Positions 3,086 through 20,133 of a DNA stretch of 24,621 nucleotides are shown in pieces. Source of the DNA: a virus; the IMG/VR virus record IMGVR_UViG_3300030012_000763, positions 1 through 24,621 of that record; one strand, written 5' to 3'. Position 1 is the stretch's first letter, and each line of letters starts with the position of its first letter. The translations under genes and the position numbers were made by a program. The notes below the pieces were generated by a model. It saw only the letters and a program-made list of their open reading frames with translations. It had not been told where the DNA came from and did no database searches.

Positions 3086-3271
3086 ACTCTCGCACAATTC
3101 ATATTGAAACTTATTAGAGACCGCAAAGAAAACATTGTGGATGTTTTGGTTAATAATGAAGTGAAAGATATGGAGCACTACAGGCAGTTAATGGGAAACA
3201 TTGATGGCCTGCAATATGTTGAACAGGAACTCAAGAGCCTGCTAGAGAAACAGGAGCTAATAGATGACTGA
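3074..3271 (+). CDS. Small helical conserved phage protein, unknown function
   Basis: This 65-residue protein is almost wholly helical and acidic to mixed in charge, with VKDMEHYRQLMGNIDGLQYV in the middle and VEQELKSLLEKQE at the end. I recall similar short proteins in marine phages, where they are annotated as hypothetical. Its start lies in a hairpin loop without a good ribosome site, and its end overlaps the GroES gene by 8 bases. This places it in a coupled series from holin to chaperonin. No catalytic or binding motif is visible. Confidence 0.72.
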   Translation: MDEITLAQFILKLIRDRKENIVDVLVNNEVKDMEHYRQLMGNIDGLQYVEQELKSLLEKQELIDD

Positions 3272-3698
3272 TGCAGTCAAAGCTACAAATGAAGACAAAC
3301 CGTCCTCCCCCTGGGTACATCCCTCAGAACGTGTGCTCGACCCTTCAAAAATTGATAAATCGCTATTAGATAGAATGCCAGATCCTACAGGCTGGCGTAT
3401 CTTGGTTCTCCCTTACAAGGGTAAAGGTAAAACTGAAGGAGGCGTTTTGCTTCCAGACCAGATATTAGCAAATCAAGAAATATCCACTCAGGTGGGTTAT
3501 GTACTTAAAGTAGGTCCTCTTGCTTACGAAGATAAAGACAAATTTCCTTTGGGCACTTGGTGTAATAAAGGGGATTGGGTTATTTTCGCAAGATATGCGG
3601 GTTCTCGCTTTAAGATTGAAGGTGGCGAGGTTCGGATACTTAATGATGATGAAATTCTTGCTAAGATATCTGACCCTGAAGACATTTTACACGTTTGA
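3264..3698 (+). CDS. Phage-encoded GroES-like co-chaperonin
   Basis: Residues 40-140 read as a Cpn10 fold: PTGWRILVLPYKGKGKTEGG, the mobile-loop hydrophobic tripeptide VLL (61-63, position of the GroEL-binding IVL in GroES), TQVGYVLKVGP, then KGDWVIFARYAGSRFKIEGG and a terminal DDEILAKI like the ESDILA end of GroES. About 38 extra residues precede the domain. GroES caps the GroEL chamber; phage versions such as T4 gp31 adapt it for coat folding. The gene lies directly before the scaffold and three genes before the coat protein, which supports that role. Ribosome site CAGGAG is 7 bases before the start. Confidence 0.88.
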   Translation: MTDAVKATNEDKPSSPWVHPSERVLDPSKIDKSLLDRMPDPTGWRILVLPYKGKGKTEGGVLLPDQILANQEISTQVGYVLKVGPLAYEDKDKFPLGTWCNKGDWVIFARYAGSRFKIEGGEVRILNDDEILAKISDPEDILHV

Positions 3699-5769: not shown

Positions 5770-6675
5770 ATGGCTATTTCTCGCGCACAACTAGCTAAAG
5801 AGCTAGAGCCAGGTTTGAACGCACTGTTCGGTCTGGAATACACCCGCTATGAAAACGAACATGCAGAGATTTTTGAAGAAGAAACCTCTGATCGGGCGTT
5901 TGAAGAGGAAGTGATGCTTGGTGGGTTCTCTACAGCACCTGTCAAAGGTGAGGGCACTGCCGTCACATTTGATGATGCACAGGAAACTTACACAGCACGT
6001 TATACACATGAGACTATTGCTCTTGCTTTTTCAATCACTGAAGAAGCTATTGAGGATAATCTGTATGACCGCCTTGCATCTCGTTATACAAAAGCTCTTG
6101 CTCGTTCAATGGCTCAGACAAAGCAAATTAAAGCTGCGTCTATCTTGAACAATGCATTTAGCACAGGCTCACCAATTGGTGACGGTGCAGCTCTTTGTTC
6201 TAACGCACACCCATCACTGTCAGGCAATCAATCAAACATTTTGGCAACAGCCGCTGACCTCAACGAAACTTCTCTTGAGCAGATGTTGATTGATATTGCA
6301 GGCTTTACAGATGAACGTGGGCTGAAAGTTGCTGTACGCGGCACTAAACTGATTATTCCAAAAGAGCTTCAGTTTATTGCAGAGCGTGTGCTCAACTCAA
6401 ATCTGCGTCCAGGTACAGCCGACAACGATGCAAATGCGATGAAGAACATGGGTATGTTGCCTGAAGGGGCAGTGGTTAACCACTTCCTGACAGACACAGA
6501 TGCATTCTTCATCAAAACAGATGCTCCTAACGGATTTAAAATGTTTAATCGTTCACCGATTAAAACCGCTCTTGAAGGCGATTTTGATACAGGGAACACA
6601 CGTTTTAAAGCTCGTGAGCGTTACAGCTTTGGGGTCTCTGATTGGCGTTGTGTGTTTGCAACACCTGGGGCATAA
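5770..6675 (+). CDS. Major coat (capsid) protein, gpT-like
   Basis: This 301-residue protein has an N-terminal helix (AQLAKELEPGLNALFGLEY), an acidic EIFEEETSDRAFEEEV loop region, and a long helix around LYDRLASRYTKALARSMAQT. ALCSNAHPSLSG resembles the DG..LF...HP region of Mu gpT-type coats, and KLIIPKELQFIAERVLNS is a P-domain-like strand-helix. The end RARERYSFGVSDWRCVFATPGA-like stretch is typical of these coats (here it begins FKARERYSFG). Length matches gpT (about 305) rather than P22 coat (about 430). An HK97 fold is expected. A strong terminator follows immediately, consistent with a highly expressed transcript end. Confidence 0.85.
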   Translation: MAISRAQLAKELEPGLNALFGLEYTRYENEHAEIFEEETSDRAFEEEVMLGGFSTAPVKGEGTAVTFDDAQETYTARYTHETIALAFSITEEAIEDNLYDRLASRYTKALARSMAQTKQIKAASILNNAFSTGSPIGDGAALCSNAHPSLSGNQSNILATAADLNETSLEQMLIDIAGFTDERGLKVAVRGTKLIIPKELQFIAERVLNSNLRPGTADNDANAMKNMGMLPEGAVVNHFLTDTDAFFIKTDAPNGFKMFNRSPIKTALEGDFDTGNTRFKARERYSFGVSDWRCVFATPGA

Positions 6676-6679
6676 AACA

Positions 6680-6693
6680 GTTTCTTCGGAAAC
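6680..6693 (+). promoter_or_regulatory. C(UUCG)G tetraloop hairpin after the coat gene
   Basis: GTTTC and GAAAC form a perfect 5-bp stem around TTCG, closed by C-G, the exceptionally stable UUCG tetraloop form. It starts 4 bases after the coat stop and lies just before the terminator. It has no T-tract of its own, so it is more likely a 3'-end stabiliser or folding nucleus than a terminator. Confidence 0.6.
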
Positions 6694-6695
6694 AG

Positions 6696-6727
6696 AAAGA
6701 GCGACTTCACAGTCGCTCTTTTTTATT
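6696..6727 (+). terminator. Intrinsic terminator downstream of the coat gene
   Basis: An 11-bp perfect stem (6696-6706 with 6711-6721), GC-rich at its core (GAGCGACT with AGTCGCTC), closes a four-base loop TCAC and runs into TTTTATT. This is a textbook rho-independent terminator, and it ends the portal-to-coat transcript. Confidence 0.88.
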
Positions 6728-6734
6728 ATATATT
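6706..6734 (+). promoter_or_regulatory. Candidate sigma-70 promoter overlapping the terminator
   Basis: TTCACA (6706-6711, one change from TTGACA) is followed 17 bases later by TATATT (6729-6734, one change from TATAAT), with a start expected near 6741. The -35 element lies in the loop and 3' arm of the terminator. It would restart transcription for the genes from 6828 on. AT-rich DNA can give such matches by chance. Confidence 0.45.
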
Positions 6735-6739
6735 AAATT

Positions 6740-6827
6740 TGGGCGTAACTTTAGCTTTGTAGACAGGATCATGCCCACCTGACATTGCACGGACTACAAA
6801 GCGAAACCTTGTGCAAGGGGTATCAAT
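6740..6827 (+). ncRNA. Putative structured 5' leader with pseudoknot-type pairing
   Basis: This untranslated stretch precedes the gene at 6828. GCTTTGTAG (6754-6762) pairs perfectly with CTACAAAGC (6794-6802). TGGGC (6740-6744) can pair with GCCCA (6773-6777), which lies between those arms, so the two helices interleave as in an H-type pseudoknot. Inside, CAGG (6764-6767) and CCTG (6778-6781) can form a small hairpin presenting GCCCA. Near the ribosome site AAGGGG (6815-6820), two exclusive pairings are possible: TTGCAC (6785-6790) with GTGCAA (6811-6816), or CCTT (6807-6810) with AAGG (6815-6818). No known riboswitch family was recognised. Confidence 0.45.
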
Positions 6828-7310
6828 ATGGCTGCAACTACTTTTTCAGGTCCAGTGACTTCTACTGGCGGATTTATTTCAGGAGCAAATTCTCTCGTAT
6901 CTATCACTGCGAATACTACATTGACCGCAGCTTCTCATGCGGGAAGAACAATGGTTCTAAGCGTAGCGAGCGGAGCGACACTTACTCTTCCTGCTGCTAG
7001 CGGTACGGGTAATATCTACAAGTTCTTTGTGGCTACTACCATCACCTCAAACAATTATATTATTCAGGTTGCTAACGGCAACGACACTATGGCTGGTGTA
7101 GCTATCGTGGCTAATGATTCTGATAACTCTGCTTCTATTTTTGAGACAGCAGCCGCGTCAGACACTATTACTTTAGACGGCACCACAACCGGAGGGATCC
7201 TTGGTGGCACGATTGAGATCCAAGATGTAGCGACAAATGTATTTTCAGTCGTAGCTCGTGGCGCAGCGACAGGTACTGAAGCTACTCCATTCTCTGCCGC
7301 TGTTTCATAA
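6828..7310 (+). CDS. Beta-rich structural protein, probable decoration or head fibre
   Basis: This 160-residue protein is Thr/Ser/Ala/Gly-rich with almost no Lys or Arg. It begins MAATTFSGPVTSTGGFISGA and continues with alternating strands such as GATLTLPAASGTGNIYKFFV and NYIIQVANGNDTMAG. I recall very similar proteins in marine phage structural regions, annotated as structural or hypothetical. The start has AAGGGG upstream and lies after the structured leader, so it is the first gene of the second transcript. A capsid-surface or head-fibre role is inferred from composition and its place just after the coat gene. Confidence 0.72.
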   Translation: MAATTFSGPVTSTGGFISGANSLVSITANTTLTAASHAGRTMVLSVASGATLTLPAASGTGNIYKFFVATTITSNNYIIQVANGNDTMAGVAIVANDSDNSASIFETAAASDTITLDGTTTGGILGGTIEIQDVATNVFSVVARGAATGTEATPFSAAVS

Positions 7311-9088: not shown

Positions 9089-9649
9089 ATGGATTTTGCA
9101 ACCGAAGAAGCTATCAAAGTTGAAATGAGAGATTGGTCCGCTCATGCGTTAGAAATTCCAAATGAGTATTATAACAACCTGCCTGCTTGCCCCTATGCAA
9201 AAAAAGCTTGGGCGACAAATAAAGTCGGCTTTTCTTTTAAATATGACCAAGATTGGCAAACACTTTATACTTTAATTTCTACCTGGGATGACAATAAAGA
9301 CGTTGTCATTCTTATAGATTTTTGTCCTCTCCCTCTTGATGAAATGGATGAGTTTCTGGATAAAATTAATCACGCCATATCTCAAGGTATATTCATCAAC
9401 AAAGACATGTTTTTAATGGGTTTTCATCCAGAGGATGAAGGCAATGAGTTGTTGGATAATGAGTTTGAATCGACTGTTGAAACGCCATATGGTATGGTGT
9501 TCTTGCAGAGACTTTCAAAGTTGCAGGAAGCCTCTGACGCCCTTAGACTAAAGGGGTATTATAAAATTGCACAGCAATATTATGATGCAGATTTTTTGTA
9601 CAAGCAACGTCAAGACTTTTACAGGAGACTGAAAAGTGAAAAAAGCTAA
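9089..9649 (+). CDS. Enzyme-like conserved phage protein, possible DUF1415 relative
   Basis: This 186-residue acidic protein differs from its basic neighbours. In order it shows NLPACPYAKKAW (30-41), KDVVILIDFCP (70-80), DEMDEFLDKINHAI (84-97), KDMFLMGFHPEDE (105-117), TPYGMVFLQRLSKLQEA (132-148) and a helical tail. The cellular family DUF1415 has, from memory, the same order: NLCPFA, a hydrophobic strand, a dFldyldfl helix, a strand ending FHP, and RSPYPxlHLLREaS. That suggests a distant relative. Cys34, His113, Pro114 and Arg141 are candidate functional residues. DUF1415 has no settled function, so none is claimed here. Starts 8 bases after the previous stop. Confidence 0.68.
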   Translation: MDFATEEAIKVEMRDWSAHALEIPNEYYNNLPACPYAKKAWATNKVGFSFKYDQDWQTLYTLISTWDDNKDVVILIDFCPLPLDEMDEFLDKINHAISQGIFINKDMFLMGFHPEDEGNELLDNEFESTVETPYGMVFLQRLSKLQEASDALRLKGYYKIAQQYYDADFLYKQRQDFYRRLKSEKS

Positions 9650-9797
9650 GAAGATGATGCGTGGTGGCGCAGCAAAAGCGAAAAAGAAGCCTGCTTTCAT
9701 GAGAGGTGGGGGTATGGCAAAGGCTAAACCAGCAATGATGCGTGGTGGCGGCAAGGCAAAAAAGATGATGCGTAAGGGCGGCAGAGTTAAAAAGTAA
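9636..9797 (+). CDS. 53-residue Lys/Met-rich protein with four M-R-G-G repeats
   Basis: GTG 9636 follows AGGAG (9623-9627) by 8 bases and overlaps the previous gene by 14; the stop overlaps the next start (TAATG). The sequence is low complexity with MMRGG at 7-11, FMRGGG at 21-26, MMRGGG at 34-39 and MMRKGG at 44-49, separated by Lys/Ala linkers. There are no acidic residues. At DNA level a 16-base unit (atgatgcgtggtggcg) occurs at 9654 and 9735. I recall similar MMRGG proteins in marine phages. RGG repeats often bind RNA in other proteins; here that is only a suggestion. Confidence 0.68.
   Translation: MKKAKKMMRGGAAKAKKKPAFMRGGGMAKAKPAMMRGGGKAKKMMRKGGRVKK
9654..9750 (+). repeat. Direct repeat within the MRGG protein gene
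   Basis: The 16-base unit atgatgcgtggtggcg is identical at 9654-9669 and 9735-9750, with partial copies in between and after. It encodes the MMRGG repeat, so codon choice as well as protein is conserved, which suggests fairly recent duplication. Confidence 0.7.
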
Positions 9798-10465
9798 TGA
9801 CGACCTCTGGTTCAAAAAACTTTGAGCTTCAAGTCGATGATTATATCGAAGAAGCTTTTGAGCGGTGCGGGCTCGAATTTAAGACGGGATACGATGCTCG
9901 CACCGCAAAACGATCGCTCAATCTGCTTCTAGCAGATTGGGCAAATCGTGGCTTGAATCAATGGACGATAAAACAACGGTCTTTGACACTTACTCAAGGC
10001 ACTGCCTCATATGATTTGAATGCCGATGTAATAGATGTTTTATCTGCAGTTTGTCGTAGAAGCGGGTCAGATACAGTGCTCAACCGAATTAGCAGGCAAG
10101 ATTATCTTGTCTTACCAGATAAAACCCAACAAGGCAGGCCAAGTCAATTTTTCTTGGACAGACAAGTAACGCCAAAGATTTTCTTATACAATGCGCCTGA
10201 AAATGCAACAGATACAATTATCTATGATACTCTTGTTCGGATAGATGATGCGGATCAACTAGACAATACGCTTGATTTACCTTTTAGATTTTATCCTTGT
10301 TTAGCTGCGGGTCTTGCTTATTACGTCGCAATAAAACGTGCTCCTGATAGAATACAGCTTTTAAAAGCAATTTATGATGAAGAATTTGAAAGAGCTAGGG
10401 CAGAAGACCGTGACCGCTCTTCCTTCAATATTTCCCCTAATTACCAATACTTGAGGGTAAACTAA
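9797..10465 (+). CDS. Head-tail adaptor (P22 gp4-like)
   Basis: This 222-residue protein begins with helices typical of adaptor proteins that bind under the portal: QVDDYIEEAFERCGLEF, then TAKRSLNLLLADWANRGLNQ and a strand-rich middle (TLTQGTASYDLNADVIDVLS). The C-terminal helices read YPCLAAGLAYYVAIKRAPDR and EEFERARAEDRDRSSF. This helical bundle pattern with LLxxWxxxGL is shared by gp4 of P22 and related head-completion proteins. It is longer than P22 gp4 (about 166) because of the strand-rich middle. It starts the connector part of the operon. Assignment is from pattern memory. Confidence 0.75.
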   Translation: MTTSGSKNFELQVDDYIEEAFERCGLEFKTGYDARTAKRSLNLLLADWANRGLNQWTIKQRSLTLTQGTASYDLNADVIDVLSAVCRRSGSDTVLNRISRQDYLVLPDKTQQGRPSQFFLDRQVTPKIFLYNAPENATDTIIYDTLVRIDDADQLDNTLDLPFRFYPCLAAGLAYYVAIKRAPDRIQLLKAIYDEEFERARAEDRDRSSFNISPNYQYLRVN

Positions 10466-15994: not shown

Positions 15995-16174
15995 ATGAAG
16001 ATTACGGCAGCAAAATACGGAACAGCAGAGTTATACCCAGAACGTGGTAATACAAGGATAATAGCTACTATTGATGGCGTAGAAATGCAAGTTCCTCTTG
16101 ACCCAGCCAACCGCCACTACGCAGCCATCCTTGAGTGGGTAGCTGAAGGTAACACTATTCAGGACGCTGACTAA
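15995..16174 (+). CDS. Fibre-associated small protein A (59 residues)
   Basis: The frame opens one base after the stop of fibre A and closes in a TAATG overlap with the next gene, filling the space exactly. The 59-residue product contains MKITAAKYGT, IDGVEMQVPLDPANRHYAAI and LEWVAEGNTIQDAD. It is paralogous to the 57-residue product at 19960-20133, also directly behind a paralogous fibre. The NRHY-I-EW-I-DAD ending recalls the tail-fibre-linked proteins of many phages. A chaperone or accessory role for the fibre is likely but not shown. Confidence 0.75.
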   Translation: MKITAAKYGTAELYPERGNTRIIATIDGVEMQVPLDPANRHYAAILEWVAEGNTIQDAD

Positions 16175-19959: not shown

Positions 19960-20133
19960 ATGAACATCACAAGCGCAAAGTATGGGACAGACCAAAATGG
20001 AAATAATATAGGGGTCATGGCAGTGATTGACGGCGAAACAATGTGGGTTCCAAATGACTCTGGTAATCGCCATTGGGAAGCTATTATTGAATGGGAAAAG
20101 AAAGACGGCAACATAATACAGGACGCTGATTAA
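19960..20133 (+). CDS. Fibre-associated small protein B (57 residues)
   Basis: The frame starts directly behind the stop of fibre B and ends in a TAATG overlap with the next gene. The 57-residue product carries MNITSAKYGT, VIDGETMWVPNDSGNRHWEA and IIEWEKKDGNIIQDAD, and aligns by eye with small protein A along its whole length (KYGT, IDG, VP, NRH, EW, IQDAD). Its constant place after each copy of the fibre argues for a dedicated fibre accessory or chaperone. Confidence 0.75.
   Translation: MNITSAKYGTDQNGNNIGVMAVIDGETMWVPNDSGNRHWEAIIEWEKKDGNIIQDAD

Follow-up and report, generated by a model that had tools for sequence, protein, structure and literature searches.

A folded RNA leader of three crossing helices ends at the Shine-Dalgarno sequence (SD) of a probable head-decoration gene in a 24,621-nt phage contig (the whole stretch of DNA analysed here, called the window). 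Judged by sequence comparison, the folded leader is conserved in hundreds of relatives among marine and freshwater phages despite change of sequence. We regard it as fairly probable that it is a cis-acting element controlling translation of the head-decoration protein, switchable between a pseudoknot and a hairpin.

The gap behind the capsid gene

The leader lies in a 152-nt non-coding gap (6676–6827) directly after the major capsid gene; the capsid gene, the elements in the gap and the downstream gene are on the + strand. The capsid gene (5770–6675) matched Pfam PF25209 (6.6e-15), PF10124, Mu-like gpT (7e-7), and phrog_371, major head protein. The first-pass annotation had called this gap the only one longer than 100 nt, and 6676–6827 is indeed the only one that is non-coding, the apparent gaps at 9650, 15995 and 19960 being open frames. 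Positions 9595–9799 hold a Lys/Gly-rich repetitive frame (MRGGG repeats) between longer frames. Two small frames, one of 59 aa (15995–16174, MKITAAKYGT...) and one of 57 aa (19960–20133, MNITSAKYGT...), resemble each other and look paralogous; each comes after a longer structural-type frame. A 144-aa frame (3264–3698) lies upstream of the capsid gene, at the position annotated as GroES co-chaperonin in relatives.

The gap contains, in order, a terminator, a promoter-like site and a leader of ~80 nt running up to the SD of the gene at 6828. The intrinsic terminator behind the capsid gene (6694–6723), graded strong, has a 13-pair stem, a 4-nt loop and a T-rich tail. The sigma-70-like site TTCACA-17-TATATT (6706–6734) has 10 of 12 consensus bases and a predicted start at ~6740; its −35 hexamer sits within the terminator stem. 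Such matches are common by chance in this region (2 found, 1.7 expected), and the match in the window alone is not above chance. In 50 of the 63 homologues the best −10-like hexamer starts 11–16 nt ahead of helix A, the first helix of the leader, which makes a transcription start at or near helix A (~6740) likely. No terminator was found in the gap sequence between the leader and the downstream gene.

Helices of the leader

Helix B is a perfect 9-bp inverted repeat (GCUUUGUAG, 6754–6762, with CUACAAAGC, 6794–6802), present as first described. The interleaved complement reported with it (6740–6744/6773–6777) is also present; in full it is 7 bp long, including one G-U pair, and is here called helix A (UGGGCGU, 6740–6746, with AUGCCCA, 6771–6777). 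A third interleaved helix, C, had been missed: its core pairs 6785–6790 with 6811–6816, and with a G-U pair it reaches 8 bp (UUGCACGG, 6785–6792, with UUGUGCAA, 6809–6816). Its 3′ strand directly adjoins the SD (AGGGG, 6816–6820). Helices A, B and C are the only Watson–Crick helices of at least 5 bp in 6738–6827. The crossing order A B a C b c is that of two hairpins joined by a loop–loop helix, with strand b inside the loop of helix C. The small helix d (CAGG, 6764–6767, with CCUG, 6778–6781) encloses strand a in its loop. The window thus has the three crossing helices, arranged as A B d a d′ C b c-SD and ending at the SD, of the class discussed below.

A 9-bp Watson–Crick helix crossed by one of at least 5 bp arose in 12 of 5000 dinucleotide shuffles. 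Nested minimum free energy (MFE) folding of 6700–6840 gave no signal (z = −0.31); since nested folding cannot score crossing helices, this result is uninformative and was dropped as a test.

Two mutually exclusive pairings had been proposed to cover the ribosome site, and both are possible in the window. In the nested MFE fold of 6740–6827, a candidate anti-SD, ACCUU (6806–6810; CCUU is invariant in the 63 homologues), pairs with GGGGU (6817–6821). Helix C/c shares 6809–6810 with this alternative hairpin and uses the strand that would form the hairpin loop.

The original observation is confirmed, and it was understated: besides helix C, it had overlooked helix d and the promoter-like site, whose predicted start is where the leader begins. 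It had also missed that very divergent relatives share this topology and that RF03012, a known but different RNA, occurs at the homologous position.

Covariation in window-type homologues

A nucleotide search of the phage collection gave no matches; we therefore turned to protein searches. Homologues were retrieved by three queries (the downstream protein, the capsid protein and the leader core), yielding 126 distinct window-type leaders, of which a non-redundant set of 63 with <93% identity was aligned. One candidate, L278, was rejected as a chance match to the core pattern.

In the non-redundant set, 99.0% of cells in helices B, C and d are paired, and seven pairs have changes on both sides. 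Cells changed on both sides number 104, against a shuffled mean of 23.0; none of 500 shuffles reached 104, a control that ignores kinship and alongside which a tree-based count was made. Parsimony on a tree of 35 downstream proteins gave ~34 double changes, 22 pair-keeping single changes and 8 breaks. Shifting the partners by 1–3 columns reduced pairing to 30–44%.

Compensatory change in the two arms initially named had been suggested as a check, and it was found in both. For helix B/b, 97.7% of cells are paired and six of the nine pairs have changed on both sides. Helix A is misaligned by MAFFT since the A-to-B distance varies, and it was scored by re-registration: it is kept in 63/63 re-registered leaders, as GGGC/GCCC, GGGG/CCCC, GGGA/UCCC, GGGU/ACCC, GGAAC/GUUCC or GAGC/GCUC, with an own-loop score of 14.2 versus 12.2 for shuffled partners (sd 0.25). 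In helix C, the alignment pair 57–78 is CG in 50 leaders and UA in 13. Helix d and most of helix C are invariant within this set and therefore rest on evidence from outside it. The case that the leader is helical is made by covariation, that is, by comparing sequences. The earlier reading as an interleaved, pseudoknotted regulatory RNA is supported to that extent; the regulatory role itself is what we infer.

The spacing of the leader to the ATG is 11–14 nt, with a fixed distance from helix C, in 61 of the 63 homologues. Twelve of 122 leaders lie 286–1120 nt from the capsid gene, still at a nearly fixed distance from the ATG; the leader therefore belongs to the downstream gene. It occurs solely before this downstream gene family, in one copy per searched genome.

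A wider class with the same order of helices

This arrangement recurs before the homologous gene in the cultured Pelagibacter phages HTVC023P and HTVC027P and in phages DSL-LC04 and 023Pt_psg01, built there from arms almost wholly different from those of the window type. Many contigs related to HTVC023P and DSL-LC04, including many from freshwater, share this order as well. Among 35 DSL-type leaders, pairing with the own partner scored above pairing with shuffled partners for helix B (22.3 versus 12.7, sd 0.8), helix A (15.4 versus 13.7) and helix C (14.4 versus 12.7, where the automatic choice of C was wrong for at least L454 and L479). Helix d, invariant among the close homologues of the window, varies in pairs here (GACAG/CUGAC, GACGG/CCGAC, GACCG/CGGAC and GACUG/CAGAC).

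The relation between the window type and the divergent members is recognizable with a covariance model, R1, built from the window-type leader with only B and d paired. At the leader position, R1 matched L318 (the HTVC023P-leader match, E = 2e-5), L478 (4e-5), L440 (9e-5) and L382 (2e-4); it also matched L412 (0.006). The R1 search missed some class members, such as L320, L424 and L461. Two bacterial-genome contigs carry the leader, in phage-like loci. Several relatives examined (Rhizobium phages, QDWS535) are without such a leader, which counts against the model favoured below.

RF03012 at the homologous position

The window has no match in Rfam 15, in line with the statement that no known family could be assigned, and a scan of other class members gave no family matches. 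Permissive matches in 6650–6850 to STnc50, STnc250 and MicX were rejected; they reflect the terminator hairpin and T tract and lie far below gathering scores.

Many close capsid relatives, Roseobacter phage CRP-901 among them, have RF03012 (Mu-gpT-DE) in place of the window-type leader. The RF03012 model matches L322, L139 and L104; against the window it gave no match at the gathering score, nor at E up to 10 in 6650–6850. The two RNAs share their place between a Mu-gpT-like capsid gene (in the window, the PF10124 match in 5770–6675) and the decoration-protein gene, after a terminator and a promoter-like site; both end at the SD, and both have CUGAC/GACAG elements. They differ in fold: RF03012 holds the SD in a CCUG/CAGG helix and has one internal hairpin and a linker that covaries with the start-codon region, whereas the window lacks the CCUGAC...GACAGGAG helix containing the SD, its AGGGG lying outside the four main helices.

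The covariation of the linker was seen in 57 distinct RF03012 copies (e.g. L322:3494-3546). A GCC-type linker occurs with AUGGC (40 copies; second-codon context AUGGCU/GCG) and a CCC-type linker with AUGGGU (17 copies), with no exceptions. Linker/start-codon complementarity scored 12.48 versus 10.56 for shuffled partners (sd 0.27, maximum 11.44). This pairing is missing from the Rfam consensus structure displayed by cmscan; from the covariation, RF03012 probably closes a pseudoknot across the SD and start codon.

The downstream gene

The gene at 6828–7310 encodes a 160-aa protein, probably a head-decoration (cement) protein: it follows the capsid gene, and the gene at the homologous position in DSL-LC04 is annotated ‘cement protein’. 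Pfam and PHROG searches with the protein gave no matches. The predicted structure of the protein has a pLDDT of 68, a modest confidence, and the top-scoring PDB fold, the capsid spike of Pa223 (TM 0.45), is only a suggestive likeness. Sequence matches in PDB (actinohivin, spore photoproduct lyase) were set aside as apparent artefacts of composition.

The decoration proteins of the window and its relatives have a common N-terminal tag, M-A/G-x-T-T-F-x-G-P, beyond which their C-terminal modules (roughly 74–261 aa) are unrelated. Leader types and decoration-protein groups are mixed, and identical leader types precede unrelated C-terminal parts. The leader type does not track the C-terminal part, which makes this variable portion of the protein an unlikely regulator.

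Proposed control of translation

The leader probably sets the amount of decoration protein made. In the model we favour, RNA synthesis would begin at or near helix A, and the RNA would fold as a kissing-hairpin pseudoknot, hairpins A/a and C/c being joined by the long loop–loop helix B/b, with small helix d around strand a. In this fold the SD would be unpaired, immediately 3′ of helix C. When helix C is not formed, strand c would become the loop of a local hairpin and the SD would pair with the upstream anti-SD (ACCUU/GGGGU). Late in infection, the dose of decoration protein may then depend on whatever favours or disrupts the pseudoknot: a head protein of the phage, a factor from the host, a metabolite, or the timing of folding during transcription.

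The alternative hairpin and the start site are supported; the operation of the switch, its direction (pseudoknot = on) and its ligand are what we infer. The SD/anti-SD hairpin and helix C would exclude each other in the window. Among the DSL-type leaders, the flanks of strand c are paired with each other and show covariation (CUC/GAG, CUU/AAG, CC/GG), scoring 6.51 versus a shuffled mean of 5.59 (sd 0.20, maximum 6.27 of 1000), on sequences that are related and with shuffles that ignore kinship. In window-type leaders the CCUU and C strands are nearly invariant, and covariation of the alternative hairpin is thus seen only in the wider class.

Our reading, in which the pseudoknot is open and the hairpin closed, is tentative as to direction. 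The opposite sign (folded = off) is suggested by RF03012, whose folded state would hide the SD and AUG, and by HTVC027P-type leaders, in which helix c overlaps the SD.

A constitutive role is a possible, though clearly less probable, explanation: the pseudoknot would tie up the 5′ end as a stabilizer or translation enhancer, shielding an abundant late mRNA from decay and giving steady high translation with no switching. A transcript starting at helix A, as predicted for the window and most homologues, would have its 5′ terminal bases paired; the downstream structural gene is likely needed in many copies, and one leader type serves unrelated decoration proteins. Among T4 mRNAs the most stable is that of gene 32, and it carries a pseudoknot at its 5′ end (PMC3014915). 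The constitutive explanation gives no reason why the last helix always abuts the SD at a fixed distance, why the flanks of strand c are paired or why RF03012, at the same place, pairs with the start codon.

A small-molecule riboswitch is improbable. The conserved unpaired and linker bases (AGACAGG, GAC-AGA) exceed what the helices need, and the layout resembles that of the SAM-II and preQ1-II riboswitches, with a pseudoknotted aptamer beside the SD. However, the leader is found solely before virion structural genes, which to our knowledge no known riboswitch controls, and the Rfam search that gave no match included the riboswitch families. A small RNA transcribed from the gap and acting in trans, for which the promoter-like site of its own and the sRNA type given to RF03012 in Rfam could speak, is less probable still: no terminator precedes the gene, the 11–14 nt to the ATG are kept in 61/63 leaders, and the leader keeps its place before the downstream gene where other genes have come between it and the capsid gene. 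Conservation of DNA rather than of RNA pairing (a promoter, operator or recombination site) would fit long invariant blocks such as CCTGACRTTGCA and is strongly disfavoured by the pair-keeping double changes, the loss of pairing on a one-column slide and the same topology built from different arms.

Relation to known systems

Translation control by a leader that can switch between pseudoknot and hairpin, the reading we prefer, has relatives in kind. The S4 alpha operon has a pseudoknot at the ribosome site with alternative pairings. So does the rpsO operator bound by S15 (PMC3014915), and in this both resemble the window leader; they differ from it in serving cellular genes and in sequence and topology, and no homology is claimed. 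Among phages, the gene 32 leader of T4, T2 and RB69 forms an H-type pseudoknot bound by gp32, the ssDNA-binding protein (PMC3014915). Like the window leader, that of T4 gene 32 is a phage mRNA leader with a pseudoknot; there it controls translation of a phage protein, and the mRNA is stable (PMC3014915). The gene 32 pseudoknot lies 67 nt upstream of the start codon with an A+U-rich stretch before the SD, whereas in the window three crossing helices abut the SD. According to a 2010 review, T4 gene 32 may still be the sole viral pseudoknot in translational autoregulation (PMC3014915).

The kind of element is thus already known, from the T4 gene 32 pseudoknot leader and from RF03012 at the same locus. 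A literature search of partial coverage found no account of the leader described here; as far as that coverage goes, the way it is built, how widely it occurs and the swapping of architectures appear to be new.

Known pseudoknotted leaders of phage mRNAs are few, and this one offers defined arms for mutation. The three leader architectures exchanged at one locus are a natural experiment on the evolution of such regulators. More speculatively, and with a good deal of doubt, widespread kissing-hairpin translation switches, interchangeable with the unrelated RF03012 fold, might set the dosage of decoration protein in one of the most abundant marine phage groups by sensing the state of capsid assembly, for example through free capsid protein.
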